DNA of 64,000 nt from Mesorhizobium sp. (GTDB lineage: Bacteria; Pseudomonadota; Alphaproteobacteria; Rhizobiales; Rhizobiaceae), in assembly GCA_004020315.1 (NCBI GenBank), contig SAQG01000001.1, forward strand, positions 310,001 to 374,000, given 5' to 3'. Of this stretch, positions 12,425-25,996 are shown in pieces. The notes under the pieces are model-generated. The model saw nothing but the letters and a program-made list of their open reading frames with translations, searched no databases and was not told where the DNA came from. Both the position numbers and the translations under genes were made by a program. How positions within the stretch are numbered: position 1 is the stretch's first letter; the number at the start of each line of letters is the position of its first letter.

Positions 12425-13085
12425 CGGCAATTCCTTTGAGCACCTGGTCAGTCGTCGCCGTCCAGCCGACGATCGCGCCCTGCGCCCTGATCATGGCCAG
12501 CGCGGCCGCCTTGAATTCCGGAAAATAGCTCTCCGTCGCATCCTCGGCCAGCAGGCATTCGTAGCCGCGGTCGTTGGCCTCGCGCATCGTCGTCTGCACG
12601 CAGACTTCGGTGGTGACCCCTGCAAAAATGAGTTGCTGCACGCCGAGGCGCTTGAGGTCTTCACCAAAGCTTGTCGCATAGAACGCGCCCTTGCCGGGTT
12701 TCTCGATGACGATTTCGCCCGGCAATGGCGCAAGCTCGTCGAGGATCGCAGTTCCAGGCTCGCCGACGATCAGCACGCGGCCCATCGGACCGACATCGCC
12801 GATCCTGATCGACGGATTGCCACGATTGCGCTTGGCCGCAGGCAGATCCGAAAGGTCTGGCCTGTGGCACTCCATCGTGTGGATCACCGGCAGGCCGGCA
12901 GCGCGAAATCCCTCAATCAGCCTTTTCACCGTCGGCACGATCGCCACCACCTGGCTGACGTCGTTGCCGAGGCTGGCGCCGAAGCCGCCCGGCTCGGCGA
13001 AGTCGCGCTGCATGTCGATGACGACCAGCGCCATCGCCTCAGGCCTGAAGGCAAACGGAAACGGCAGCGCGTCGATCTCGGCCAT
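12417..13085 (-). CDS. Isochorismatase-like cysteine hydrolase, probable triuret (or biuret-type) hydrolase
   Basis: A 222-residue cytosolic amidohydrolase of the isochorismatase-like superfamily. The Asp-Lys-Cys triad is Asp24 ('VVIDMQRDF'), Lys129 ('[10 protein letters not shown]') and Cys162 ('[19 protein letters not shown]'). It is a paralogue of the biuret hydrolase at 14624-15325, from which it differs at the N terminus and in the substrate-loop region. Two such enzymes with allophanate hydrolase in one operon is the arrangement expected for triuret to biuret to allophanate breakdown, so I propose the TrtA role. Ureidoacrylate hydrolase (RutB) is the main alternative, but no other rut genes are present. 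Its start codon overlaps the ABC ATPase stop (TGATG). Confidence 0.75.
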
Positions 13086-14614
13086 CAGTGATGACCAGCC
13101 ATATGTTCGCCGATCGTCTGCACGCTCGCCTGGGCGATCGGCGTCTCGTAGACCAGCGCGCCGTCGGACATGACGAAGATGCGGTCGGAGAGTTCGAGCA
13201 ATTCGTCAAGGTCCTCCGACATCAAGAGCACGGCGGCGCCGGCGTTGCGCGCCTTCATAATACGGGCGCGGATTTCGGCGACGGCGGAGAAGTCGAGGCC
13301 GAAGCACGGGTTCGAAACAATAAGCAGATCGACCTCGCCGGTCAGTTCGCGGGCGAGCACCGCACGCTGCACATTGCCCCCGGACAGCGATGAAATCGGC
13401 GAGGCGAGCGAGGCGGTCTTGACCTTGAACTGTTCGACCAGGCGCGTCGCATAGTTCCTGATAGCACTCATCCTGATCCAGTTGATCTGTTTGCCGGCCT
13501 CGTTCAGGTCGAAGGTCCGGAAAGCTATGTTTTCGGCAACCGTCATCCTCGGTGCGCAGGCATTGCGCAACGGTTCCTCCGGGATGAAGCGCACATTGAG
13601 CGTGCGGGCCTCGGCGCGGCTGGCGCCATAGGGCGATCCCTTCACCAAAACGTCGCCGGCATCACGCGTACGCTGCCCGGCAAGGACTTCTAAAAACTCC
13701 TTCTGGCCGTTGCCGGAGATACCGGCGACGCCGACGATTTCGCCGGATTTCACATCGAGTTCGCCGATATTGATGGTCTTCAGGCCGGTGCGGTCGGGCG
13801 CCTTCAGTGCCTTCACCGTCAAGATTTGCCTGGCGCCGACCGGCACTGGAGCGCGCGAGTCGAGCGCGGCGATCGGTTGGTCGCCGATCATCATCGCCGC
13901 CATCTGCTTGTGAGAGAGTTCCGAGACTTTCCCCGTTCCCGTCAGTCTGCCCTTGCGCAACACCGTGATGTCGTCGGCGAACGCCGTCACCTCGTGGAAT
14001 TTGTGCGAGATCATCAGCACGGTGAGGTCGCCCGCCTTGGTCATGCCGCGCACGAGGCCCAGCACTTCCTGTGCCTCGCCGGGGCTCAGCACGGACGTCG
14101 GCTCATCCAGCACCAGGAAACTGCGACCGAGATAAAGCTGTTTGATGATTTCGAGCTTCTGTTTCTCCCCGGCGGCAAGTTCCGCCACCTTGACGTCGAG
14201 CGGCAGCTTGAACGGCATCCGCTCCATGAATTGGGCCAGTGCGGCGCGCTCCTTGCGCCAGTCGATGATATCAGGCACCTTTTCGCGGGAAATGACCAGG
14301 TTCTCCGCACCCGTCAGCGACGGGACAAGGGTAAAATGCTGGTAGACCATGCCGAGGCCAAGCGCCGAGGCATCCTTCGGACTGGCGATCCCGACCTCGC
14401 GGCCGTCGACCAGAATGTCGCCGGCGGTCGGGTGATAAAAACCCATGATGCATTTGACCAGGGTCGACTTGCCCGCGCCGTTTTCGCCAAGCAGCGCATG
14501 AAACGATCCCGCCGGCACCTTGATCGAGACGTCGCCCAGCGCGGTGAGGGCGCCGAAGCGCATCGTCATGCCGATGGTCTCGACGCCGACTGCTTTTTTG
14601 CCGCGGTCACTCAT
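13085..14614 (-). CDS. ABC transporter ATP-binding protein with two ATPase domains (BMP/nucleoside-type)
   Basis: A 509-residue protein with two tandem ABC domains, as in sugar and BMP-family nucleoside importers. The first domain has Walker A 'GENGAGKST', Q-loop 'MVYQHFTL', Walker B '[15 protein letters not shown]' and a divergent signature '[11 protein letters not shown]'. The second has a degenerate Walker A ('GISGNGQKE'), signature '[15 protein letters not shown]' and Walker B '[14 protein letters not shown]'. One functional and one degenerate half is normal for this subfamily. It energises the two permeases at 15350-17453. It lies between the two cysteine hydrolases, 9 bp after biuH and overlapping the next hydrolase by one base, so enzymes and importer are a single transcription unit. 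Confidence 0.92.
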
Positions 14615-14623
14615 GATCGAACC

Positions 14624-15325
14624 TCATGGCAACTCGGCCACGAAGGACACCGAGTTCGACACCGCGCCGAACACCCCGCCTTGCATCTTGATCATCTTGA
14701 TCGCGGCGAGATGGTTGCCGTAGTCGGTCGCCCCGCAGCAATCCTCCAGCATCACACATTCGAAGCCGCGGTCGTTGGCCTCCCGCATCGTCGTGTGCAC
14801 GCAGACATCGGTGGTGATGCCGGTGAGCACGATGTTTTCGAGGCCGCGCTGGTTGAGGATCAATTCCAGGTCGGTGGCGCAGAACGAGCCCTTGCCCGGC
14901 TTGTCGATGATTGGCTCGCCCTCGGCCGGATAGAGATCGGGGATGATGTCCCAGCCCGGCTCGCCGCGCACCAGGATGCGCCCGCAGGGTCCGGGGTCGC
15001 CGATGCCGGCATTGATGCGGCGCGAGCGCCAGCGCTTGTTGGCCGGCAGGTCGGCGAGATCGGGCCGATGGCCCTCGCGCGTGTGGATGATGGTGTAGCC
15101 CTTTGCCCGCATGGCGGAGAGCACCGACTTGATCGGCTCGATCGGCGCCCGCACCAGCGAGAGATCGTAGCCCATATGGTCGACGTAGCCGCCCGGCCCA
15201 CAGAAATCGGTCTGCATGTCAATGATGATCAGCGCCGTGTTATCGGGCCGAAGCTCGCCATTGTAGGGCCATGGATAGGGATCGGCATCGATATAGCGCT
15301 GCGTGATCTCGGCTCTGGCGTTCAT
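14624..15325 (-). CDS. biuH: Biuret amidohydrolase
   Basis: A 233-residue isochorismatase-like cysteine hydrolase that converts biuret to allophanate and ammonia. The triad sits at Asp36 ('[10 protein letters not shown]'), Lys142 ('[10 protein letters not shown]') and Cys175 ('[19 protein letters not shown]'), with Gln215 in 'IKMQGGVFG'. To my recollection these are the same residue numbers as in the characterised Rhizobium leguminosarum biuret hydrolase, so length and register also match. The product feeds allophanate hydrolase in the same operon. It lies 24 bp after the broken permease gene and 9 bp before the ATPase gene. Confidence is high for the family and good for biuret as substrate. 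Confidence 0.87.
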
Positions 15326-15349
15326 TGAGAAAACTCCAGTTGCGGGCGG

Positions 15350-16275
15350 TCATTTGGTGATCGAAAGTTCGCCCGGCGCGCCGGCCAGCGAACGGCTCGG
15401 CGACGAGGTGGCGATCATGATGACGAGGGTGAGGATGTAAGGTGCGGCGTAGAACAGATAGTAGCCTTGCGTGACGCCGACCGATTGCAGCGCCGGCCCG
15501 AGCGCGCCGGCGCCGCCAAACAGCAGCGCGGCGGCAAAGCAGCCGAGCGGATTCCAGCGCGCGAAGATGACCAGCGCCACCGCCATCAGCCCCTGTCCCG
15601 ACGAAATGCCTTCGGTCCAACTGCCGGGATAGTAGAGCGAGAGGTAGGCGCCGCCGATGCCGGCCAGCGCGCCGCCGATGCCGGTGGCGATGAGGCGCAC
15701 CGTTTCGGATTGAGGCCCATGGCGCACGCGGCGTCGGAACTGTCGCCGACCACGCGCACGATCAGGCCGGCGCGGGTGTTGCGGAAAGCCCACCACAGGA
15801 ACACGGCAAGCGCTGCGCCGACCAGGAACAGCACATTGACGTTGAGCGCCGCCTGCACCTGCGGAATATCGGACCATCCGCCAAAGGGGATCGCCGGCAG
15901 GTCGGGCGCCGAGGGCTGGATGAACGGCTTGCCGAAGAAGAAGGCGAGACCCGAGCCGAACAGCATCAGCGCAATGCCGATGGCGATGTCGTTAACCCCA
16001 CGGAATTTGCAGATCCAGCCATGGAACAGGCCGAAACAAAGACCGGCAGCTGCGGCCGCCAGCAGACCGAGCCATGGCGAGCCGGTCATCACCGCCACGG
16101 CATAGGCGGTCATCGCGCCGAACGCCAGCGTTCCTTCGAGACCGAGATTGATGCGCCCCGAACGTTCGGTGATGGCTTCGCCCAGCGACACGAAGATGAA
16201 GGGCGTCGACACGCGGATGGCGCCGCCGAGCATGGCGAGTGGAACGCCCCAGAGGCCGATCTCGGTTGCGTCCAT
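15350..16275 (-). pseudogene. ABC transporter permease (BMP/nucleoside-type), interrupted by a one-base frameshift
   Basis: This encodes the second inner-membrane permease of the importer. It starts with ATG at 16275 (MDATEIGLWG), sharing one base with the upstream stop. The frame is good through 'RVVGDSSDAACAMGLNPK', then shifts at the short T-run 15703-15705 (AAA on the coding strand). The correct continuation 'TVRLIATGIGGALAGIGG...' is in the +1 frame and runs to the stop at 15350. Restoring one A (AAA to AAAA) would give an uninterrupted 308-residue permease ending 'GELSITK'. As written, translation ends at 15586 after 229 residues. It could be a real lesion or a homopolymer sequencing error. 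All neighbours are intact, which favours an error or a very recent mutation. Confidence 0.85.
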
Positions 16276-17453
16276 CAGGCAATCCTCTTCAAGAGATCTG
16301 GCCCCTTCAAGAGATCGGGTCCCTTCAAGAGATCGTCCCTCTGCCAGAGGTCGGGATTGAAGGCCTTGAAGCGGCCGTAGAAGGTTTCGCTGAACAGGAT
16401 GACGACGAAGAGCATGCCCTGCAGCACCAGCACGGTAGCGTCGGGCAGGTCCATGCGGCGCTGGATCAGCCCGCCGGAGGCGTCGATGCCGCCAAGCAGG
16501 AACGCGACCGGGATGATGGCGAGCGGATTGTGGCGGGCGAGGAAGGCGACGAGGATACCGGTATACCCGTAGCCGGAAGCGAGCGAGGCGTTGGCGCTGC
16601 CTTGCACGGCGGCGACTTCCAGCATGCCGGCAAGACCGGCGAAGCCGCCGGCCAACGCGGTGAAGCCGACGATCAGCGGTCCGACGGCAAGTCCCTGCAC
16701 CTGGGCTGCCCTGACATTGCCGCCGGCGATGCGGGCGGCGAACCCCCAGCGTGTCTTTTCGATCAGCAGCCAGGACAGAATGCAGGCAATGATGCCGACG
16801 ACCAGCCCCCAATGCACGTCCATGCCCGGGATGTTGCCGATGCGGTAGGCCTCCGCCAGCGGCTCGGTCGAGGGTTTGTTGAGCGAGGCGGGATCGCGCA
16901 GTGGCCCTTCCACCAGATGGTTCATCAGGGCGATGGCGATATAGGCCATCAAAAGGCTCGATATGGTTTCGTTGACGGCACGGTAGTGGCGTAGCGCGCC
17001 GACGGCACCGATCCAGATGCCGCCGGCGGCCAGGCCCGCCACGCCCATGGCAAGAATAACGAAAAAGGCGGGGGCGCCGCTGGCGGCCACGCCCATGGCA
17101 GCCGCGGCGACGCCGCCCAGCACGATCGCGCCTTCGCCGCCGATGACGACGAGGCCGAGCCGGGCCGGCAGTGCCACGCAGAGCGCCGCAAGCAGCAAGG
17201 GTGCGGCCCGCGACAGCGAGTTCTGGATCGAGAACCACGAGCCGAAGCCGCCGCGCCACATCGTTTCATAGAGCTGCACGGGCGACTTGCCGACCAACGC
17301 GATGAACAGGCTGAACAGGGCCATGCCGACGATCAGCGCCGCGAGCGGGATGACGAAGGCTTCCGCCCGCCGGGCGATCCATTCGAGCGCCGTCGGGTAG
17401 CCCCGGGCGCCGAGCATCACTGGCACGCTCGCACTGCTCACCGTGTCTGCCAT
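16275..17453 (-). CDS. ABC transporter permease (BMP/nucleoside-type)
   Basis: A 392-residue inner-membrane protein with about ten hydrophobic segments, matching the larger of the two permeases in BMP-family (nucleoside/purine-type) importers ('GGEGAIVLGGVAAAAMG', 'NETISSLLMAYIAIALMNHLVEGPLRDP', 'GYGYTGILVAFLARHNPLAIIPVAFLLGGI'). I chose the ATG at 17453, 22 bp after the binding-protein stop; an in-frame upstream start would overlap that gene. The C terminus carries an odd short tandem repeat, LLKGPD-LLKGPD-LLKRIA, encoded by an 18-bp DNA repeat. It works with the frameshifted permease downstream and the two-domain ATPase at 13085-14614; the substrate is probably biuret, triuret or a related ureide. 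Confidence 0.9.
   Translation of the reverse strand: MADTVSSASVPVMLGARGYPTALEWIARRAEAFVIPLAALIVGMALFSLFIALVGKSPVQLYETMWRGGFGSWFSIQNSLSRAAPLLLAALCVALPARLGLVVIGGEGAIVLGGVAAAAMGVAASGAPAFFVILAMGVAGLAAGGIWIGAVGALRHYRAVNETISSLLMAYIAIALMNHLVEGPLRDPASLNKPSTEPLAEAYRIGNIPGMDVHWGLVVGIIACILSWLLIEKTRWGFAARIAGGNVRAAQVQGLAVGPLIVGFTALAGGFAGLAGMLEVAAVQGSANASLASGYGYTGILVAFLARHNPLAIIPVAFLLGGIDASGGLIQRRMDLPDATVLVLQGMLFVVILFSETFYGRFKAFNPDLWQRDDLLKGPDLLKGPDLLKRIA
16287..16334 (-). repeat. 18-bp tandem repeat at the 3' end of a permease gene
   Basis: Two full copies (16287-16304, 16305-16322) and a partial third of a unit beginning CTTCAAGAGATC on the plus strand. It adds hydrophilic LLKGPD repeats to the extreme C terminus of the permease. 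The length is a multiple of three, so the frame is kept. Confidence 0.85.
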
Positions 17454-17475
17454 GGCCCCCGTCTCCGATCCATGC

Positions 17476-18603
17476 TCATGCGGTCGAGCCGACGACACCC
17501 TCGACGAGATAGTCCATGCTTTCCAGTTCGATCGCGGCCTCGACGAAAGTCTGGCCCTCGGTTGCGACGACGTCGCCCTTGTTGTTCTTCAACGGCCCCT
17601 TGATGACGGAAAAGCCGCCCTTCATCATTTCGGCGAGCGTGCCGTCGAACTGTGCGCGCGCCGCCTCGCTGACGGCGGGGCCGAGCGGGCTCATCTTGAC
17701 GAAGCCGTCGGCCAGTCCGCCGCGCGTGAAATTGGGCAGCGGCTTGCCGGCCATGAGGTCGTCGACGAACATCTTGTAGACCTTCGCCCAGTTCCACTCC
17801 GCGCCGGTCAGATATTTTTCGGGCGCCAGCAGGCTCTGGTTGGCATGGTAGCCGCAGATGAAGGCGCCACGCCCCGCCGCCGTTTCGACCACCACCTTCG
17901 GGCTGTCGACATGGCAAGTGATGACGTCGGCACCCTGATCGACCAGTGCATTGGCGGCTTCCGCCTCCTTGACCGCCAGCGACCATTCGCCGGTGAAGAT
18001 CACCTGGCAGGTGATGGCCGGGTCGACCGAGCGTGCACCGAGCAGGAAGGAATTGATGTTGAGCAGAACCTGCGGAATGGGCTTTGCCGCGACGAAGCCG
18101 AGCTTCTTGGTCTTGGTGGCGTGGCCGGCGGCGACGCCGTTGAGATACTGGCCCATACCGATATAGCCGAAATAGGAACCAGCATTCATCGGATGCTTGT
18201 CCTTGTTCCACATGCCGCCGCAATGGCGGAACTGCACGTCGGGGAATTTCGCGCACATGGCCAGCATGTGCGGATCGAAATAGCCGAACGAGGTCGGGAA
18301 GATCAGCGAGGCGCCGTCGAGGTTGATCATCGATTCCATCGTCTTCTGGACATCGACCGTTTCGGGGACGTTCTCCTCCTCGACCACGGAGATGCCCTCG
18401 ATGGCCCTCAATGTGGCGGCACCCTCGGCATGCGCCTGGTTGTATCCGTAGTCGTCCTTTGGCCCGACATAGATGAAGCCGACCGTGACGGCAGCGGCGA
18501 ACGCCCTGCTGATCGGGAATGATGCCGAGGCCAGACCGATCGCCGCTCCGGCGGCGGAGGTCTTGAGCAGATCGCGGCGGCTAAGCATGAATCTCTCGGT
18601 CAT
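17476..18603 (-). CDS. BMP-family ABC transporter substrate-binding protein, Tat-exported
   Basis: A 375-residue periplasmic binding protein and the first gene of the eight-gene minus-strand operon. The N terminus has a clear twin-arginine signal ('LSRRDLLKTSAAGAAIG', then a hydrophobic stretch and 'RAFAA'), so it is folded before export. The mature part fits the PF02608 basic-membrane-protein family ('VGFIYVGPKDDYGYNQAHAEGA', 'HVDSPKVVVETAAGRGAFICGYHANQ'), which binds nucleosides, purines and ureido compounds. In the context of biuret and allophanate hydrolases the ligand is probably biuret/triuret or a similar carbamoylurea. Transcription should start at the sigma-54 site near 18666-18681. 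Confidence 0.92.
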   Translation of the reverse strand: MTERFMLSRRDLLKTSAAGAAIGLASASFPISRAFAAAVTVGFIYVGPKDDYGYNQAHAEGAATLRAIEGISVVEEENVPETVDVQKTMESMINLDGASLIFPTSFGYFDPHMLAMCAKFPDVQFRHCGGMWNKDKHPMNAGSYFGYIGMGQYLNGVAAGHATKTKKLGFVAAKPIPQVLLNINSFLLGARSVDPAITCQVIFTGEWSLAVKEAEAANALVDQGADVITCHVDSPKVVVETAAGRGAFICGYHANQSLLAPEKYLTGAEWNWAKVYKMFVDDLMAGKPLPNFTRGGLADGFVKMSPLGPAVSEAARAQFDGTLAEMMKGGFSVIKGPLKNNKGDVVATEGQTFVEAAIELESMDYLVEGVVGSTA

Positions 18604-18664
18604 GTTAAATGCTCCCTGTTGGACCCTTTTCCGGGTCGATTAATTCCCTTCTCGTAAAAGTGCA

Positions 18665-18681
18665 TGCAATCACTGTGCCAG
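18665..18681 (-). promoter_or_regulatory. Sigma-54 (-24/-12) promoter for the biuret-type operon
   Basis: On the minus strand the sequence reads CTGGCACAGTGATTGCA: TGGCAC, seven bases, TTGCA-type ending, with GG (18679-18678) and GC (18667-18666) exactly 10 nt apart. This is an essentially perfect RpoN element. Transcription would start near 18654, about 50 nt before the binding-protein start codon. An activator such as NtrC would be needed; I could not find a convincing NtrC box. Confidence 0.8.
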
Positions 18682-18885: not shown

Positions 18886-19590
18886 TTGTCGGGGAAGCGC
18901 AGCTTGATCAGGTCGGGCACGACCGTCGATCAGATGGTGAGGGCGATCGGCGACCGGATCGTTACCGGCTTCCTGCGCCCCGGCGAAAAGCTCGACGAGG
19001 CCTCGCTCGCTGCCCGTTTCGACGTGTCGCGCACCCCTGTCAGGGAGGCGCTTGGCCGGCTGAGCGCCATGGGGCTGGTCGAAAGGCGGCCCAATCGGGG
19101 CGCCACCGTCGCCGTGGTAACGCAGGAGCATCTTGCCTCGATGTTCGAGAGCATGGCCGAGCTTGAAGCGATTTGCGCGCGGTTCTCAGCCGAGCGCATG
19201 ACCACTGCCGAGCGCCGCGCGCTCGAGATCGAGCATCAGGCATCGGCGCGCCTTGTGCAGTTGGGTGCGGAGGAGGACTACGAATATTTCAACACGGAGT
19301 TCCACACCCGGCTCTATCGCGGCGCTCACAGCAAGCATATCTATGAACTGACTGTCATGACGCGCAGCCGGCTGGCGCCGTTCCGGCGCGCGCAATTCAT
19401 GCTGCCGGGCCGCCTGGCCAAATCCTGGCAGGAGCATGACGTCATCGTTACCGCAATCATGCGCGGTGACGGCGCTGCCGCAGGACAGGCAGCCAAGGAT
19501 CACGTTTCCATCGTCAGCGAGGCGAGCGCCGTTTTTGCCGCGGTTGACCCGATGAAACCGGAGACGGATTCGATCGGGATGTCTTCCTAG
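18886..19590 (+). CDS. GntR-family transcriptional regulator (FCD subfamily)
   Basis: A 234-residue regulator. The N-terminal winged helix-turn-helix is canonical ('IVTGFLRPGEKLDEASLAARFDVSRTPVREALGRLSAMGLVERRPNRGATVA'). It is followed by the all-helical FCD ligand domain, with probable metal-ligand residues in 'FNTEFHTRLYRGAHS' and 'HDVIVTAIMRGD'. The start is an unusual TTG at 18886 with a strong GGAGGAG site 5-6 nt upstream; no ATG is well placed. It is divergent from the biuret-type operon and precedes the guanidine operon, so it probably controls the former, and possibly itself, through the inverted repeat at 18742-18772. Ligand unknown; allophanate or biuret are candidates. Confidence 0.9.
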   Translation: MSGKRSLIRSGTTVDQMVRAIGDRIVTGFLRPGEKLDEASLAARFDVSRTPVREALGRLSAMGLVERRPNRGATVAVVTQEHLASMFESMAELEAICARFSAERMTTAERRALEIEHQASARLVQLGAEEDYEYFNTEFHTRLYRGAHSKHIYELTVMTRSRLAPFRRAQFMLPGRLAKSWQEHDVIVTAIMRGDGAAAGQAAKDHVSIVSEASAVFAAVDPMKPETDSIGMSS

Positions 19591-19702: not shown

Positions 19703-19720
19703 TTGGCATGCTCCTTGCTT
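19703..19720 (+). promoter_or_regulatory. Sigma-54 (-24/-12) promoter for the guanidine operon
   Basis: The sequence TTGGCATGCTCCTTGCTT has GG (19705-19706) and GC (19717-19718) separated by exactly 10 nt and matches the RpoN consensus TGGCAYR-N4-TTGCW. Predicted transcription starts near 19729-19730, a few bases before the conserved riboswitch begins, so promoter and leader fit together. Confidence 0.8.
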
Positions 19721-19737
19721 CGTTGACCGTGTGCAGA

Positions 19738-19845
19738 GCGTCTAGGGTTCCGGCCGCAGCAAAGCGGTGCTGGTCCAAGAGATGCGACCGCCAAGGGTGC
19801 ACTGAGGCATCCGGCGGAACACGGCGGGCCAAAATCCCGGGAGAA
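19738..19845 (+). promoter_or_regulatory. Guanidine-I riboswitch (ykkC aptamer)
   Basis: The leader contains all the diagnostic ykkC/guanidine-I blocks in order and spacing: CTAGGGTTCCG at 19742-19752, CTGGTCCAAGAG at 19770-19781, and ACACGGCGGG..AAAATCCCGGGAGA at about 19819-19844. Class I aptamers bind free guanidinium and switch on export or degradation genes. Here the regulated unit is an importer plus a guanidine hydrolase, so the logic is induction of assimilation. The gene-free stretch 19591-19945 otherwise holds only the sigma-54 promoter upstream and the expression platform downstream. Confidence 0.95.
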
Positions 19846-19880
19846 CCCTGCACGGGTTTGCTGGCGCGAACCTCTCCCGG
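19837..19880 (+). promoter_or_regulatory. Candidate expression platform of the guanidine riboswitch
   Basis: CCGGGAGA (19837-19844), which includes the conserved 3' end of the aptamer, can pair perfectly with TCTCCCGG (19873-19880). The hairpin AACCC/GGGTT (19844-19848 with 19854-19858) sits inside. Such pairing would be mutually exclusive with the ligand-bound fold. There is no U-tract after it, so a classic intrinsic terminator is not evident; translational control or Rho-dependent control is possible. Confidence 0.55.
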
Positions 19881-19945
19881 ATGCGCGCTTCGCAAACCCC
19901 AACATAAAGTCCGGTCGCAATCCGGATCGCGAACAGGGGTACGCA

Positions 19946-21010
19946 ATGCTTCGCAAGCTGGCCGCAATCATCCTAGCCGCATCACTCAGCCTTCCCATGA
20001 TTTCCGCCGCTGACGCGGCACCCAAGAAAGACTTCAAGATATGCTGGTCGATCTATGTCGGCTGGATGCCGTGGGGGTATCTCTCCGACAGCGGCATCAT
20101 GAAGAAATGGGCCGACAAATACGGCATCAATGTCGAGATCACCCGTATCAACGACTATGTCGAAAGCATCAATCAGTACACCGCCGGCGGCTTCGACGGC
20201 TGTTCGATGACCAACATGGACGCGCTGTCGATCCCCGCTGGCGGCGGCGTCGACACCACCGCTTTGATCATCGGCGACTTCTCCAACGGCAACGATGCCG
20301 TGATCCTCAAGGACAAGGCCGCGCTCGCCGACATTGCCGGCCAGAAGGTCAATCTCGTCGAACTCTCCGTCTCGCATTACCTGCTGGCGCGGGCGCTGGA
20401 CACGGTCAAGCTCGCCGAGAAGGACATCACCGTCGTCAACACCTCCGACGCCGACATGGTCGCCGCCTACGGCACCAGCGACGTCACCTCGGTCGTTACC
20501 TGGAACCCGCTGGTGTCCGAGATCGTCGCCATGCCGGGTGCGCACAAGGTTTTCGATTCCTCGCAAATTCCCGGTGAGATCATCGACATGATGGTCGTCA
20601 ACACCGAGACGTTGAAGGACAATCCGGCATTGGGCAAGGCTCTTGCCGGCGCGTGGTACGAAGCGATGGACCTGATGACCTCGGACACGCCGGAAGGCAA
20701 GGCAGCCAAGGAGGAGATGGCCAAGGCGTCCGGCACGGACCTCGCCGGCTTCGACGCGCAGCTCGCGTCGACAGCGATGTTCTTCGACCCGGCCAAGGCG
20801 GTCGAGTTCACCAAAGGCACCGAATTGCCGAAGACGATGGATCTTGTCCGCAACTTCCTGTTCAGCCACGGAATCCTCGGCACCAACGCAACGAGTGTCG
20901 ACGTGGTCGGCATGAGTTTTCCCGACGGATCCACGCTGGGCGACGCCAAGAACGTCAAGCTGCGTTTCGATCCAGCCTTCATGGCCGAGGTCGCGACCGC
21001 AACGCCCTGA
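19946..21010 (+). CDS. ABC transporter substrate-binding protein of the guanidine operon (NitT/TauT-like)
   Basis: A 354-residue periplasmic binding protein with a Sec signal peptide (hydrophobic 'LAAIILAASLSLPMISAADA', cleavage near AAPKKD). The mature protein has the SsuA/NitT-type two-lobe pattern ('WSIYVGWMPWGYLSDSGIMKKWADKYGINVEI', 'GGFDGCSMTNMDAL', 'DVTSVVTWNPLVSEIV'). It is the first gene after the riboswitch and is followed by its permease and ATPase. Homologous SBP-permease-ATPase sets sit beside ykkC riboswitches and guanidine hydrolase in cyanobacteria and other bacteria, so guanidine or a guanidine-like cation is the probable ligand. An AGGGG site precedes the ATG. Confidence 0.9.
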   Translation: MLRKLAAIILAASLSLPMISAADAAPKKDFKICWSIYVGWMPWGYLSDSGIMKKWADKYGINVEITRINDYVESINQYTAGGFDGCSMTNMDALSIPAGGGVDTTALIIGDFSNGNDAVILKDKAALADIAGQKVNLVELSVSHYLLARALDTVKLAEKDITVVNTSDADMVAAYGTSDVTSVVTWNPLVSEIVAMPGAHKVFDSSQIPGEIIDMMVVNTETLKDNPALGKALAGAWYEAMDLMTSDTPEGKAAKEEMAKASGTDLAGFDAQLASTAMFFDPAKAVEFTKGTELPKTMDLVRNFLFSHGILGTNATSVDVVGMSFPDGSTLGDAKNVKLRFDPAFMAEVATATP

Positions 21011-21016
21011 CGCGAC

Positions 21017-21928
21017 ATGCTGGCCAAGGAAATGAGTGCCAGGGATGAAGTCTCCGAGACGGGCGGGGAGGGCACCGTGCGTCCTTCCCGGCCAAGGCCG
21101 AGAGTGCGTCTTCGCATGATCAATGCGAAGGTCTCGCGCGGCAGCGCCTTGTTCCTCGGCTGCTTGCCGTTCTTGTTCGTGGCGGTCGCCTATCTGATCG
21201 CTTCGGCGCAACGACTGGCCGTCAATCTCAGCGATAAGCTGCTGCCTTCGCCGGCACAGATGTGGTCGGCCTTTCTTGACCTGGCCACGGTGCCGGATAA
21301 GCGCTCCGGCGACCTTATCCTGTGGGTCGACACCTATGCCAGTCTCCTCAGGCTGTTCGCGGGCGTGGGCGTGGCCACGTTCGCCGCGCTTTCGCTCGGC
21401 ATCGCCATCGGCTTCATTCCGCGGGTGCGGGCCTTCCTGCTGCCGCTCGTCACCGTCGTCTGCGTCATTCCTCCGCTGGCGCTGCTGCCGATCCTGTTCA
21501 TCGCGCTTGGCCTCGGCGAAACGGCCAAGATCACGCTGATTGCCCTTGGCGTCGCGCCGGTGATGGTGCGCGACATTGCCAACCGGGTGATGGAGTTGCC
21601 ACCAGAGCTGGTGGCCAAGGCGCAAACGCTTGGCGGCAACAGCTGGACCATGGTCTTGCGGCTGGTGCTGCCGCAAGTCATGCCGCGCCTCATCACCTGC
21701 GTGCGGCTGGCACTCGGGCCGGCCTGGCTGTTCCTGATCGCCGCCGAAGCCATCGCCTCGACTGAAGGGCTGGGCTACCGCATCTTCCTCGTCCGCCGCT
21801 ATCTCTCGATGGACGTCATCCTGCCCTATGTCGCCTGGATCACGCTGCTTGCCGTCATCACCGACTGGCTGCTGGTGCGGCTTTCCCAAGCGGTGTCCCC
21901 CTGGGCACATCCGGCGGAGGCCAGATGA
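21017..21928 (+). CDS. ABC transporter permease of the guanidine operon
   Basis: Up to 303 residues, with six predicted membrane segments and the cytoplasmic EAA loop typical of NitT/TauT-type permeases ('ELPPELVAKAQTLGGNSWTMVLRLVLPQVMPRLITCVRLALGPAW'). The first ~38 residues are polar and poorly conserved in character. In-frame ATGs at 21032 and 21116 are alternatives, and 21116 would still leave all membrane segments intact. It lies 6 bp after the binding-protein gene, and its stop overlaps the ATPase start by ATGA. Confidence 0.9.
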   Translation: MLAKEMSARDEVSETGGEGTVRPSRPRPRVRLRMINAKVSRGSALFLGCLPFLFVAVAYLIASAQRLAVNLSDKLLPSPAQMWSAFLDLATVPDKRSGDLILWVDTYASLLRLFAGVGVATFAALSLGIAIGFIPRVRAFLLPLVTVVCVIPPLALLPILFIALGLGETAKITLIALGVAPVMVRDIANRVMELPPELVAKAQTLGGNSWTMVLRLVLPQVMPRLITCVRLALGPAWLFLIAAEAIASTEGLGYRIFLVRRYLSMDVILPYVAWITLLAVITDWLLVRLSQAVSPWAHPAEAR

Positions 21929-22734
21929 GCCGCATCGTCGTTCACGGGCTGGAAAAGAGTTATGGCGATGCCCGCGTGCTCGAGCGGGTCAACGTCACCG
22001 CCGAAGCCGGCGAATTCCTGTCGCTGGTCGGCGCCAGCGGCTGCGGAAAATCGACGTTCCTGCGCATCCTGCTCGGCCAGGAGCAGCAGAGCAGCGGTGT
22101 CGTCATCGTCGGCGATCGGCCCATCATTCCGGAGCCGACGCCGCAGCGCGGCATCGTCTTTCAGCGCTATTCGGTGTTTCCGCATCTGACCGCCGTCCAG
22201 AACCTGCTGCTGGTCGCAGACTTTCGCTCGGGCGGGCCGTTTGGCCGCGTCTTCGGCGCCAGGCGCAGAAGCGCCAGGCAAGAGGCCGAGGCCATGCTGG
22301 AGCGGGTCGGCCTTGCCCATGCGCGCGACCTCTATCCCGCATCGCTCTCCGGCGGCATGCAGCAGCGGCTAGCGATTGCGCAGACCTTGCTCGGCCGTCC
22401 GCAGATCCTGCTTCTCGACGAGCCGTTCGGTGCGCTCGATCCGGGCATCCGCGTCGAGATGCACGAACTGCTGACCGAGCTCTGGACCGAGCACGGCATG
22501 ACGGTGGTGATGGTCACCCACGATATCGGCGAGGCCTTCAAGCTCGGCACCCGCGTGCTGGTCTTCGACAAGGTGCGTCACGATCCGCAGTTCCCGTCCG
22601 CTTACGGCGCGACGATCACCTACGATTTGAAGCTCGATCGCAAGACCCGGGCTTCCTCTCATCACTTGGCCAAGGTGGCCGCGATGGTCGGGACGACCCG
22701 GCCTGATACAGCAATGGCGACGACGGCGTCGTAA
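21925..22734 (+). CDS. ABC transporter ATP-binding protein of the guanidine operon
   Basis: A 269-residue NitT/TauT-type ATPase. Walker A 'GASGCGKST', Q-loop 'IVFQRYSVFPHLT', signature 'LSGGMQQRLAIAQTLL', Walker B 'ILLLDEPFGALDP' and H-loop 'VMVTHDIGEAF' are all intact. The last ~50 residues form a polar tail without a recognisable regulatory domain. It completes the importer whose permease it overlaps, and is followed after 12 bp by the guanidine hydrolase gene. Confidence 0.93.
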   Translation: MSRIVVHGLEKSYGDARVLERVNVTAEAGEFLSLVGASGCGKSTFLRILLGQEQQSSGVVIVGDRPIIPEPTPQRGIVFQRYSVFPHLTAVQNLLLVADFRSGGPFGRVFGARRRSARQEAEAMLERVGLAHARDLYPASLSGGMQQRLAIAQTLLGRPQILLLDEPFGALDPGIRVEMHELLTELWTEHGMTVVMVTHDIGEAFKLGTRVLVFDKVRHDPQFPSAYGATITYDLKLDRKTRASSHHLAKVAAMVGTTRPDTAMATTAS

Positions 22735-22746
22735 CGGAGACCGTGA

Positions 22747-23955
22747 ATGTCCAGAAATATCCCAGAACGCAGCCACCGCCGTGCAGGGCTGGTCGCCCGG
22801 GAGGCCAAGGAACGCTTTCACCACCCCGATTTCGATGCCCGCGGCACGCAGGGCTGGAAGTCGATCGAAGCCGAGGGCAAGCTGCCGGAAAGCGGCTGGC
22901 GCAAGGAGCAGCAATGGGCGCTCGACATGGGCCTGCCGGGATCGGAATCGATCGTCGACAAATCGATCCCGACATTCGCGCGCGGCGAGCTGCCGCATTT
23001 CGCCGGCATCAACACCTTTCTCAAGGCGCCCTATGTCGAGAATGTCCGCGATGTCGGCAAATACGATGCTGCCGTTATCGGCATTCCTTTTGACAGCGGC
23101 ACCACCTACCGGCCGGGAACCCGCTTCGGCCCGCAAGGCATTCGTCGCATCTCGGCGCTCTACACGCCGTACAACTATGAGCTCGGCGTCGACCTGCGCG
23201 AGCAGATGACCCTGTGCGACGCCGGCGACGTCTTCACCATTCCCGCCAACCTCGAAAAGAGTTTCGACCAGATCACCAAAGGCGTCAGCCATGTCGCCTC
23301 GTCCGGCGCGCTGCCGATCATGCTGGGCGGCGACCATTCGATCGGATTTCCTTGCGTGCGCGGCATCGCCGACGTGACCTCGAAACGCATCGGCATCATC
23401 CATTTCGACCGCCATATCGACATCCAGGAAAAGGATCTCGACGAGCGCATGCACACCACGCCCTGGTATTGGGCGACCAACCTGCCGAATGTCTCGGCGA
23501 CCAATCTCGTCCAGCTCGGCATCGGCGGCTGGCAGGTTCCCCGCTACGGCGTCGCCGAGGCGAGGAAGCGCGGCACCAACGTGCTCACCATCGCCGATAT
23601 CGAGCAGATGGGTATCGAGAAGGCGGCTGAAATCGCGCTCGAACTCGCATGGAAAGACACCGACGCCGTCTACATCTCCTTCGACGTCGACAGCCTCGAT
23701 TGCGGTTTCGTGCCCGGCACGGGCTGGCCGGAGCCGGGCGGCTTCCTGCCGCGCGAGGCGCTCAAGCTGCTTGGGCTGGTGACTGCACCCGGCATTTGCG
23801 GGCTGGAAGTGGTCGAGGTTTCGCCGCCCTACGACACGTCGGACATCACGGCGCTATTCGGCGTGCGCGTCGTCGTCGAAGCGCTCGGCTCGATGGTCGC
23901 CCATGGCAATCTCGGCAAGCATAAATCCATCATCGACAAACCGGTGAGTTTTTGA
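22747..23955 (+). CDS. gdmH: Guanidine hydrolase (nickel-dependent ureohydrolase family)
   Basis: A 402-residue arginase/agmatinase-fold enzyme expected to hydrolyse guanidine to urea and ammonia. Metal ligands are present: His197 in 'GGDHSIGF', Asp221, His223 and Asp225 in 'HFDRHIDIQ', Asp313 and Asp315 in 'SFDVDSLDCGF'. Three traits point to guanidine hydrolase rather than agmatinase: a ~100-residue N-terminal extension, Arg instead of Ala in the DxHxD motif followed by 'DLDERMHTTPWYW', and 'FVPGTGWPEPGGF' after the last ligand motif. The known cyanobacterial enzyme needs nickel. Control by a guanidine-I riboswitch and linkage to a HupE permease support this assignment over ureohydrolases acting on other guanidino compounds. 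Confidence 0.9.
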   Translation: MSRNIPERSHRRAGLVAREAKERFHHPDFDARGTQGWKSIEAEGKLPESGWRKEQQWALDMGLPGSESIVDKSIPTFARGELPHFAGINTFLKAPYVENVRDVGKYDAAVIGIPFDSGTTYRPGTRFGPQGIRRISALYTPYNYELGVDLREQMTLCDAGDVFTIPANLEKSFDQITKGVSHVASSGALPIMLGGDHSIGFPCVRGIADVTSKRIGIIHFDRHIDIQEKDLDERMHTTPWYWATNLPNVSATNLVQLGIGGWQVPRYGVAEARKRGTNVLTIADIEQMGIEKAAEIALELAWKDTDAVYISFDVDSLDCGFVPGTGWPEPGGFLPREALKLLGLVTAPGICGLEVVEVSPPYDTSDITALFGVRVVVEALGSMVAHGNLGKHKSIIDKPVSF

Positions 23956-23957
23956 TC

Positions 23958-24494
23958 ATGCATGACGATCACCACCACAGTCACGATCATGGCGACGGCC
24001 ATCATCATCTCGGGCCGAACGGTCATCATGACCATCCGCACGCCCTCGGCCACAACGGACCCGCGGGCAAGCCGCTGCAATGGCAGACGCCGCATCTGCC
24101 GCCCGACCAGGCTCACGAGCCGCCGGTTGATCCAGCGACGGTCGACCTCGATCTTGTCGAAACCGCCTTCCTCGAAGGCTTTGCGCGGGCGCCGGATCCA
24201 TCCAGCTTTCTGCGGCTTGCCGGCATACCCTTTGTCGGCGAGATGCCGGACGGCGTGCGGCTTCATCTGCTTCGCGTCGAGACCGAGGATCTGGTCGATG
24301 TCGGCGCTGTCATGCCGCTCGTCGGCGGCACCGGCGTCGCCTATCACCCGTTGCCGGCGCGCCTGACATCGCACCGACGCCGCCTCGCTTTCATCTATCA
24401 CGATGGCAGCGAGCAAAAGCCGCTCGGCTTCGCCGCGGCGCGCGCCCTCGCGGACCGTTCCGCCGCTTCGCAATTCGCCGTTCCCGGGCACTGA
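23958..24494 (+). CDS. Histidine-rich protein of the guanidine operon, candidate nickel chaperone or store
   Basis: A 178-residue soluble protein of no family I recognise. Its first 34 residues contain 14 histidines in HHH and HDH clusters, a classic Ni/Zn-binding tail like those of UreE, HypB or CooJ. The remaining ~140 residues look like a folded domain ('LDLVETAFLEGFARAPDPSSFLRLAGIPFVG', 'GVRLHLLRVETEDLVDVGAVMPLVGGTG'). The ATG at 23958 lies 2 nt after the gdmH stop; a TTG at 23952 is the alternative. In cyanobacteria the guanidine hydrolase is activated by HypA/HypB-like helpers. None are present here, so this protein together with the adjacent HupE permease is the obvious substitute. That role is inference. 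Confidence 0.8.
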   Translation: MHDDHHHSHDHGDGHHHLGPNGHHDHPHALGHNGPAGKPLQWQTPHLPPDQAHEPPVDPATVDLDLVETAFLEGFARAPDPSSFLRLAGIPFVGEMPDGVRLHLLRVETEDLVDVGAVMPLVGGTGVAYHPLPARLTSHRRRLAFIYHDGSEQKPLGFAAARALADRSAASQFAVPGH

Positions 24495-24531
24495 AACCAG
24501 AACCCGTCACTCTCATCGAACAGGTACAACC

Positions 24532-25116
24532 ATGAAAACATTTGCAAGATTTGGCATCCTTTCAGCTCTCGCCGCCGGCATACCGTCGCTGGCGTTTGCC
24601 CATAGCGGCGGCGCTCACGTCCACGGCTTTTTCGCCGGCCTCGAACATCCGCTCTTCGGCATGGATCATCTGCTCGCCATAATCGCAGTCGGCATGATCG
24701 GCGCTCGCGCCGACGGGCGCAGTATTGTCCTTGTGCCGCTGTTCTTTGTCTCGGCCATGGTCGCCGGAGCCTTGCTCGGCATGGCTGGGATCGCCTTGCC
24801 TTCCATTGAAACCGGCATCGCGCTGTCGCTTGTCGTCTTCGGCGCCATGATCGGCCTTGCCAGGCCGCTGCCGCTGGCCGCCGCCGCGGCGCTGACGGCG
24901 CTGTTCGGCCTCTTTCACGGCAACGCCCACGGCCTTGAGATCCCAGGGAGCGCCAGCGGCATCGCCTACGCCGCTGGTTTCATGCTCGGCACGTCGATGC
25001 TGCATGCGATCGGGGTCTTGTCCGTGTTCAAACTCGCCCGTTGGCCGATGACGGTCCGCACCGCTGGGGTCGCTACCTCGCTGGTTGGAATGGCCATGGC
25101 GGCACAAACTCTCTGA
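24532..25116 (+). CDS. hupE: HupE/UreJ-family nickel transporter
   Basis: A 194-residue inner-membrane protein with a cleavable signal ('FGILSALAAGIPSLAFA') followed by the family motif 'HPLFGMDHLLAIIAVGMIGA' (H-P-x-x-G-x-D-H) and a second 'FGLFHGNAHGLEIPG' motif. Both are histidine motifs required for nickel passage in HupE/UreJ proteins. Six hydrophobic segments are visible. HupE genes usually accompany hydrogenase or urease; neither is nearby. Placement 37 bp after the His-rich gene in a guanidine hydrolase operon indicates that it supplies nickel to GdmH. Confidence 0.93.
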   Translation: MKTFARFGILSALAAGIPSLAFAHSGGAHVHGFFAGLEHPLFGMDHLLAIIAVGMIGARADGRSIVLVPLFFVSAMVAGALLGMAGIALPSIETGIALSLVVFGAMIGLARPLPLAAAAALTALFGLFHGNAHGLEIPGSASGIAYAAGFMLGTSMLHAIGVLSVFKLARWPMTVRTAGVATSLVGMAMAAQTL

Positions 25117-25282: not shown

Positions 25283-25996
25283 TCAGAACTCGAGCGCCTG
25301 CCTGAGCGCTGGACCGCTCCTGACGCGCAGATCGAGGTCGGCCTCGATATGGTCGATGTGGTGCAGCATCAGTGCGCTGGCGCGTTCGGAATTGCCATTT
25401 TCCAGCGCCTCCAGGATGTTCATGTGCTCGCTATGACCGCAGCTCGAGACACCCGAGCGGCCATAAAGCGCGATCACCAGCGATGAACGCGCCACCAGCT
25501 CCTCCATAAAGCGCTGGAGGATGACGTTTCCGGCAACCGAAGCCAGCAGCAGGTGAAAATCGCCCGAAGCTTTGATTTCCGACCGTCTTGCGCTCGGCCC
25601 GCGTTCGGCAATGAAGCGGCCCTCCTCATCGAGCTGAGCCTTGAAGGCAGCGACATGGGCCGGCGTCATCCGCCCGGCTGCGGCAATCGCGATGCCGGGC
25701 TCGATGAGCCGGCGCGAAGCGAAGACCTGACGCGCTTCCTCCGGCGACGGATTGGCGACGAAGGCGCCGCGATTGCGCTCGGTCCGCACCAGACCTTCGA
25801 AGGAGAGCATCTGCAGCGCCGCGCGCGCCACGGTGCGGCTGACATCGAATAAAGTGCCGACCTCGCCTTCCGACAGCTTGGTTCCGGGCGCCAGCCGGCG
25901 ATCGACGATCGCGTCGCGCAACTGGTCGCGGATCGCTTGGGCGCGATCCTCGTTGGCACTTTCGACAGCAGGGAAAGTCTGGTCGGCTATGTTCAT
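25283..25996 (-). CDS. GntR-family transcriptional regulator (FCD subfamily)
   Basis: A 237-residue regulator with an N-terminal winged helix ('LRDAIVDRRLAPGTKLSEGEVGTLFDVSRTVARAALQMLSFEGLVRTERNRGAFVA') and a C-terminal helical FCD domain ('GDFHLLLASVAGN', 'SEHMNILEALENGNSERASALMLHHIDHIEADL'), whose Asp/His residues usually bind a metal. It is divergent from the ABC importer/racemase operon starting at 26258 and probably represses it in the absence of substrate. Paralogous in type, but not close in sequence, to the regulator at 18886. Confidence 0.92.
   Translation of the reverse strand: MNIADQTFPAVESANEDRAQAIRDQLRDAIVDRRLAPGTKLSEGEVGTLFDVSRTVARAALQMLSFEGLVRTERNRGAFVANPSPEEARQVFASRRLIEPGIAIAAAGRMTPAHVAAFKAQLDEEGRFIAERGPSARRSEIKASGDFHLLLASVAGNVILQRFMEELVARSSLVIALYGRSGVSSCGHSEHMNILEALENGNSERASALMLHHIDHIEADLDLRVRSGPALRQALEF

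Follow-up and report, generated by a model that had tools for sequence, protein, structure and literature searches.

A histidine-rich protein encoded beside the guanidinase is a candidate nickel supplier in a guanidine operon of Mesorhizobium

The stretch of DNA analysed here (the window: 64,000 nucleotides of Mesorhizobium sp., assembly GCA_004020315.1, contig SAQG01000001.1, from a genome of 6.8 Mb) carries a predicted guanidine-assimilation operon, in which a sigma-54 promoter is joined to a guanidine-I riboswitch and followed by genes for an ATP-binding cassette (ABC) importer, a guanidinase (GdmH), a histidine-rich protein that we call HISR and a HupE/UreJ-family permease (Table 1). Operons of this type are already known; the novelty lies in HISR, proposed here to replace HypA and HypB, and in the sigma-54 site joined to the aptamer. 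A sequence-only reading of the region had listed the same elements, and our searches bear them out: (i) the proposed -24/-12 promoter matches the consensus TGGCAYRNNNNTTGCW exactly, with 2 matches in the window on both strands against 0.05 expected, and its position is conserved in relatives; (ii) the aptamer, described as a complete ykkC/guanidine-I element, scores 67.5 bits (gathering score 63), and is both the sole Rfam match over threshold in the window and the sole RF00442 match in the whole genome at E up to 0.001; (iii) the set of substrate-binding protein (SBP), permease and ATPase matches TIGR03427 (whose name refers to a putative urea importer), PF00528 and PF00005; (iv) the ureohydrolase has the guanidine-hydrolase traits ascribed to it, as judged from its PDB ranking and a residue check; (v) HISR, whose ATG lies two bases past the gdmH stop, does have 14 histidines, counted by eye, among its first 33 residues; and (vi) the permease at the operon end belongs to PF04955, gene order and tight spacing being as described.

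Table 1. Features of the guanidine operon, in positions of the window
Feature	Positions	Strand	Basis
sigma-54 (-24/-12) promoter TGGCATGCTCCTTGCT	19704..19719	+	exact consensus
guanidine-I (ykkC) riboswitch aptamer	19731..19845	+	RF00442
expression platform without U-run terminator	19837..19945	+	constrained folding; mechanism inferred
substrate-binding protein (SBP), predicted guanidine importer	19946..21010	+	TIGR03427, 552 bits, cut-off 334
ABC permease	21017..21928	+	PF00528
ABC ATPase	21925..22734	+	PF00005
guanidinase GdmH (ureohydrolase), predicted	22747..23955	+	PF00491, PDB alignments, residue check
HISR, histidine-rich protein, proposed nickel supply for GdmH	23958..24494	+	no family; gdmH linkage
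HupE/UreJ-family permease, predicted nickel uptake	24532..25116	+	PF04955, 174.6 bits, cut-off 23

GdmH is predicted to be a nickel-dependent enzyme that hydrolyses guanidine. In the PDB it comes closest to the guanidinases of Synechocystis (7oi1/7esr, 545 bits) and Nitrospira (9fek, 524 bits), the next enzyme being a guanidinobutyrase at 173 bits. All six metal ligands (H197, D221, H223, D225, D313 and D315) are present, and so are the residues tied to guanidine hydrolysis (T120, H236, W327 and E357), the T, H, W and E being listed as important for this reaction by Palatinszky et al. (PMC11410670; this paper and those cited below were available in part). The complete set of ten residues is carried by 118 of 122 GdmH-like sequences, a number in which some genes are counted twice, the two locus sets overlapping; of the exceptions, L092 and L142 do not span the T position, and L091 and L191 have Ser and Thr, respectively, in place of the specificity Trp.

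HISR is tied to gdmH almost without exception. A pattern scan of GTDB contigs gave 162 HISR relatives, of which the best 80 were taken and 82 weaker ones left out; in all but one of these, gdmH lies directly 5' of HISR (79 of 80), and the gap between the two genes has a median of 8 nucleotides and a range of -4 to 298. In the 80th, from Jiella endophytica (L161, 6932-7405), HISR is detached and gdmH lies elsewhere with no HISR within 1.5 kb, an arrangement that constitutes a natural test of separate expression. Importer genes were found upstream within 7 kb in most of the set (SBP in 56, permease in 57 and ATPase in 58 of 80, some contigs ending early), and the gdmH-HISR pair persists at loci where they were not found. 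The pairing holds equally for genomes: in a sample of 297 genomes of the order, 32 carry a GdmH-like gene (E up to 1e-90) and 31 of them HISR, 29 by genome search and two (G127 and G204) by local search beside gdmH, while the other 265 gave one HISR match, in G110, of 20 bits and interrupted by stops. The exception, G140, has a GdmH-like gene (L091) with Ser for the specificity Trp and no guanidine-I match. In a phylum sample of 398, the same 7 genomes hold both genes and 391 hold neither; three of the 7 (G000, G229 and G077) and part of the rest are also in the order sample, with which the named set of 80 overlaps too, ten of its contigs having lengths that recur there. Fisher tests that ignore kinship gave 9e-40 for the order, G110 being counted against the link, and 3e-15 for the phylum. 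Among plasmid records with HISR, gdmH adjoins it in 7 of 7. Sinorhizobium fredii NGR234 has the importer genes, gdmH, HISR and hupE grouped on pNGR234b. Two loci have features of their own. The L091 ureohydrolase is itself His-rich, in an N-terminal stretch and in an insert, and HupE follows it; this enzyme may incorporate the nickel solution proposed for HISR. L189, on a plasmid of Rubrobacter indicoceani, is another layout of guanidine use, with a guanidinase-like gene near genes for a sodium:solute symporter, formamidase and urease, and no HISR.

HISR represents a protein family for which we found neither a Pfam or NCBIfam model (33 members scanned, E up to 0.01) nor a description. Among the titles and abstracts listed, those on guanidine with nickel and a histidine-rich protein, on GdmH with nickel and on HupE with guanidine contained none, the founding guanidinase report lying outside this scope, and the available parts of PMC12186494, PMC11399263, PMC11271267, PMC11410670, PMC8390497 and PMC11018352 do not mention a His-rich partner. 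The nearest named relatives of the window protein, among the best 80 of 162, are in Mesorhizobium. The family has a His-rich N-terminus, with 6 to 25 histidines (median 17) in the first 60 residues of the 80 proteins, whose starts were set by script; this is followed by a GHN...QWQTPH motif and a conserved alpha/beta C-terminal domain, in which 23 of 126 columns are invariant over 47 sequences. In a divergent subgroup (e.g. L079, L084 and L094) QWQTPH is missing, while the His tract, GHN and C-terminal domain are retained; when such members are added, 8 columns are invariant over the whole protein. In the AlphaFold model two helices are followed mainly by strands; block means of the predicted local distance difference test (pLDDT) range from 88 to 97 for residues 71-170, against about 50 for the His-rich part. 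Foldseek with two AlphaFold HISR models gave no match at E up to 0.001; the best VIA-align rows (Z up to 5.5) were kinetoplastid mitoribosomal chains, with tudor-, FeoA- and SloR-type barrels among the rows at Z of 4 or below. A HISR profile search of PDB sequences returned one match, at E 0.75, which was judged to be chance.

Other nickel helpers are scarce in these genomes. Of the 32 GdmH-like genomes in the order sample, 7 have HypA and 6 have a HypB that passes its cut-off, in each case from a gene that lies at least 250 kb from gdmH or does not share its contig; neither HypA nor an over-cut-off HypB was found in 25 of the 32, the window's genome included, and we read the weaker HypB matches as lying in the UreG range. 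HupE is optional: it adjoins 41 of the 80 relatives (downstream in 36, upstream in 5) and was not found in 39, some loci being cut short. Where HupE is missing, an aminotransferase family, present in 6 relatives, is the sole repeat 3' of HISR (45 of 50 open reading frames scanned). Urease alpha is over its cut-off in 28 of the 32 genomes, the exceptions being weak matches in G031 and G140 and fragments in the incomplete genomes G204 and G232. Because HISR pairs near-strictly with gdmH, and HypA and over-cut-off HypB are absent from 25 of 32 genomes, HISR is at present the best candidate for a HypA/HypB-independent nickel supplier, and on these genomic grounds it probably supplies nickel to GdmH, which would require it both to bind the metal and to transfer it.

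Elements of the control region recur in relatives. Of the 32 genomes with a GdmH-like gene in the order sample, all but G031 and G140 have a guanidine-I match (30 of 32), versus 41 of the 265 others. In a pattern search of 81 sequences (the 80 loci and the window) the aptamer core was present in 71. A sigma-54 site with at most 1 mismatch accompanies it in 44 of the 71, versus 12 of 14200 single-base shuffles, and in all 44 this site lies 20-24 nucleotides 5' of the aptamer core CTAGGG. Twenty-seven of the 44 are Mesorhizobium and the window, and the other 17 include Bradyrhizobium, Methylopila, Chthonobacter, Rhodomicrobium, Jiella and Geminicoccaceae. Transcription from sigma-54 promoters generally begins 12 nucleotides past the -12 element, so the transcript is expected to start at about 19730, at the first aptamer base, P1 starting at 19731. 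An intrinsic terminator was rejected, by eye, since no U-run follows the G+C-rich hairpins of the leader; we therefore modelled a translational switch. A CCGGGAGA/UCUCCCGG pairing (19837/19873) rivals P1; GGGUUUGC (19854) pairs with GCAAACCC (19892) or, alternatively, its GGUUUGC pairs with GCGAACC (19866), and the released ACCCC is able to pair with the ribosome-binding site AGGGGUA (19935-19941). In constrained folding the ON and OFF states lie 3.1 kcal/mol apart (-96.1 and -93.0 kcal/mol), and the ribosome-binding site is unpaired with a probability of 0.69 when P1 is formed and 0.28 when CCGGGAGA is paired downstream. On this model the leader would act as a translational switch.

Taken together, we consider it likely that this is a guanidine-assimilation operon with HISR as the nickel supplier that replaces HypA/HypB. 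Sigma-54 RNA polymerase would initiate transcription at the first aptamer base, and guanidine would stabilise P1, so that GGGUUUGC pairs with GCAAACCC and the ribosome-binding site of the first gene is left open. The ABC importer would then bring guanidine into the cell, where nickel-dependent GdmH would split it into ammonia and urea, with urease, encoded elsewhere, completing the breakdown. HISR, translated directly behind GdmH, would capture Ni2+ on its His-rich N-terminus and pass it to GdmH via the conserved C-terminal domain, in place of HypA/HypB, and HupE, where present, would feed nickel into the cell.

The histidines and the neighbouring HupE are also what one would expect if HISR were not an insertase for GdmH at all, and instead a nickel store or buffer, of the type exemplified by Hpn and the UreE tail, that protects the cell from HupE-imported nickel. 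The variable number of histidines (6 to 25) would suit a sink, and HupE adjoins about half of the relatives; however, the conserved part of the protein is its C-terminal domain, HISR is kept in the 39 of 80 relatives where no HupE was found, and every genome of our samples that has it also has a guanidinase gene, save for the one weak and broken match, so that we regard this explanation as unlikely. Less probable still is that HISR is a structural or regulatory subunit of the guanidinase with the histidines secondary: its strict pairing and order with gdmH would fit, the C-terminal domain could serve for docking and metformin hydrolases do need a second subunit for activity (PMC11399263, as far as available), whereas the Nitrospira guanidinase is described in the available text as a homohexamer resembling the Synechocystis enzyme (PMC11410670), and the His-rich start is kept in all 80 HISR proteins. 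That the operon serves another guanidino compound is very improbable: some ureohydrolases near the clade do lack the specificity Trp (L091 and L191), but the enzyme of the window retains both specificity residues and ranks closest to two guanidinases in the PDB, and the aptamer is of the guanidine-I class.

The proposed role of HISR can be set beside systems already described, accessory nickel or HypA/HypB genes having been reported for the cyanobacterial guanidinase and for metformin hydrolase (PMC12186494, PMC8390497, PMC11399263, PMC11271267). (i) The guanidinase operon of Synechocystis (GdmH/Sll1077, HypA/HypB-like proteins and an ABC importer) shares guanidine-I control, the importer and a homologous nickel guanidinase (PMC12186494, PMC8390497; PDB 7oi1/7esr); in contrast, the Mesorhizobium operon is without HypA/HypB and has HISR, an optional HupE and a sigma-54 promoter joined to the aptamer. 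(ii) The guanidinase locus of Nitrospira inopinata has a guanidine-I riboswitch, a homologous enzyme and no nickel chaperone genes, but it carries an amino acid-polyamine-organocation (APC) permease in place of the ABC importer, and the available text does not mention HISR (PMC11410670; PDB 9fek). (iii) The metformin hydrolase clusters of Aminobacter and Pseudomonas (hypA, hypB, two ureohydrolases and hupE) likewise combine a nickel ureohydrolase with a downstream HupE homologue, but have the chaperones HypA and HypB and a heteromeric enzyme, with no HISR described in the parts of the paper at hand (PMC11399263).

Several observations weigh against the proposed operon model. (i) According to the text available, the Nitrospira guanidinase lacks a chaperone gene and nevertheless shows activity if nickel is supplied during its expression (PMC11410670), and the chaperones of metformin hydrolase are dispensable in vitro, but the knockout strain does not grow on metformin (PMC11271267); a helper may therefore be relevant only at low nickel. 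(ii) For the C-terminal domain, Foldseek and VIA-align gave no known fold that ties HISR to a chaperone. (iii) His-rich tracts bind Zn, Co and Cu too, and so nickel is suggested by the enzyme and HupE. (iv) The co-occurrence tests take no account of phylogeny and draw on overlapping samples (order, phylum and named). (v) A GdmH-like gene is present in 11 plasmid records, and 4 of these, all from Actinomycetota, have no HISR; the guanidinase-like genes of two Rubrobacter and one Nonomuraea record have the W and no HISR within 5 kb, so the link does not reach those Actinomycetota. (vi) The leader is just modestly more stable than its shuffles (z -1.8). The best alternative stem, CCGGGAGA/TCTCCCGG, occurs in 27 of the 71 sequences, almost all of them from Mesorhizobium; the remaining 44 have a mean shuffle p of 0.35, so that beyond this genus the alternative helix has weak support. 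(vii) A sigma-54 site with 0 or 1 mismatch is missing from 27 of 71 aptamers, among them those of Ancylobacter, the four Sinorhizobium/Ensifer loci and some others, and no NtrC-like site with up to 2 mismatches to the consensus was found directly upstream of the promoter. Candidate NtrC sites with up to 3 mismatches were discarded, the window having 82 matches versus 113 expected by chance.

These results modify the sequence-only reading in three respects. Its double control by nitrogen status and guanidine stands as to the sigma-54 promoter joined to the guanidine riboswitch, which is conserved beyond this genome; with no NtrC-like site adjoining the promoter and several relatives without the sigma-54 site, control by nitrogen status is a tentative extension of that finding. 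Its proposal that the operon assimilates guanidine and obtains nickel by a route other than HypA/HypB is likewise supported, while the replacement is not the pair of HISR and HupE that had been put forward, the conserved part being HISR alone, with HupE beside 41 of the best 80 of 162 relatives. Finally, the unit is not self-contained, as had been claimed, because urease is encoded on a different contig.

Upstream of the guanidine operon, and divergent from it, lies a biuret unit (13085-18680, - strand) encoding a BiuH biuret amidohydrolase (14624-15325, - strand; NF050097, 419 bits, cut-off 370; near PDB relatives 6azo/6azn) and ABC-importer-like genes that score below the NCBIfam cut-offs; it has an exact sigma-54 site of its own at 18665-18680. 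The two together look like a nitrogen-scavenging island. Regulators of the GntR/FCD family are encoded on both sides of the guanidine operon, at 18886-19590 (+) and 25283-25996 (-).

How guanidinases are loaded with nickel without chaperones is called unclear for Nitrospira in the available part of that report (PMC11410670). HISR could be the first of a new class of nickel metallochaperones that serve the guanidinase specifically, have no GTPase partner of their own and stand in for HypA/HypB, which would explain guanidinase maturation in mostly alphaproteobacterial genomes that lack them; we rate the chances of this broader claim as about even. A sigma-54 start at the aptamer would, in turn, place an external signal and guanidine in series within one short leader. 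And since HISR is tied almost one to one to the guanidinase, nickel delivery becomes testable genetically in these bacteria.

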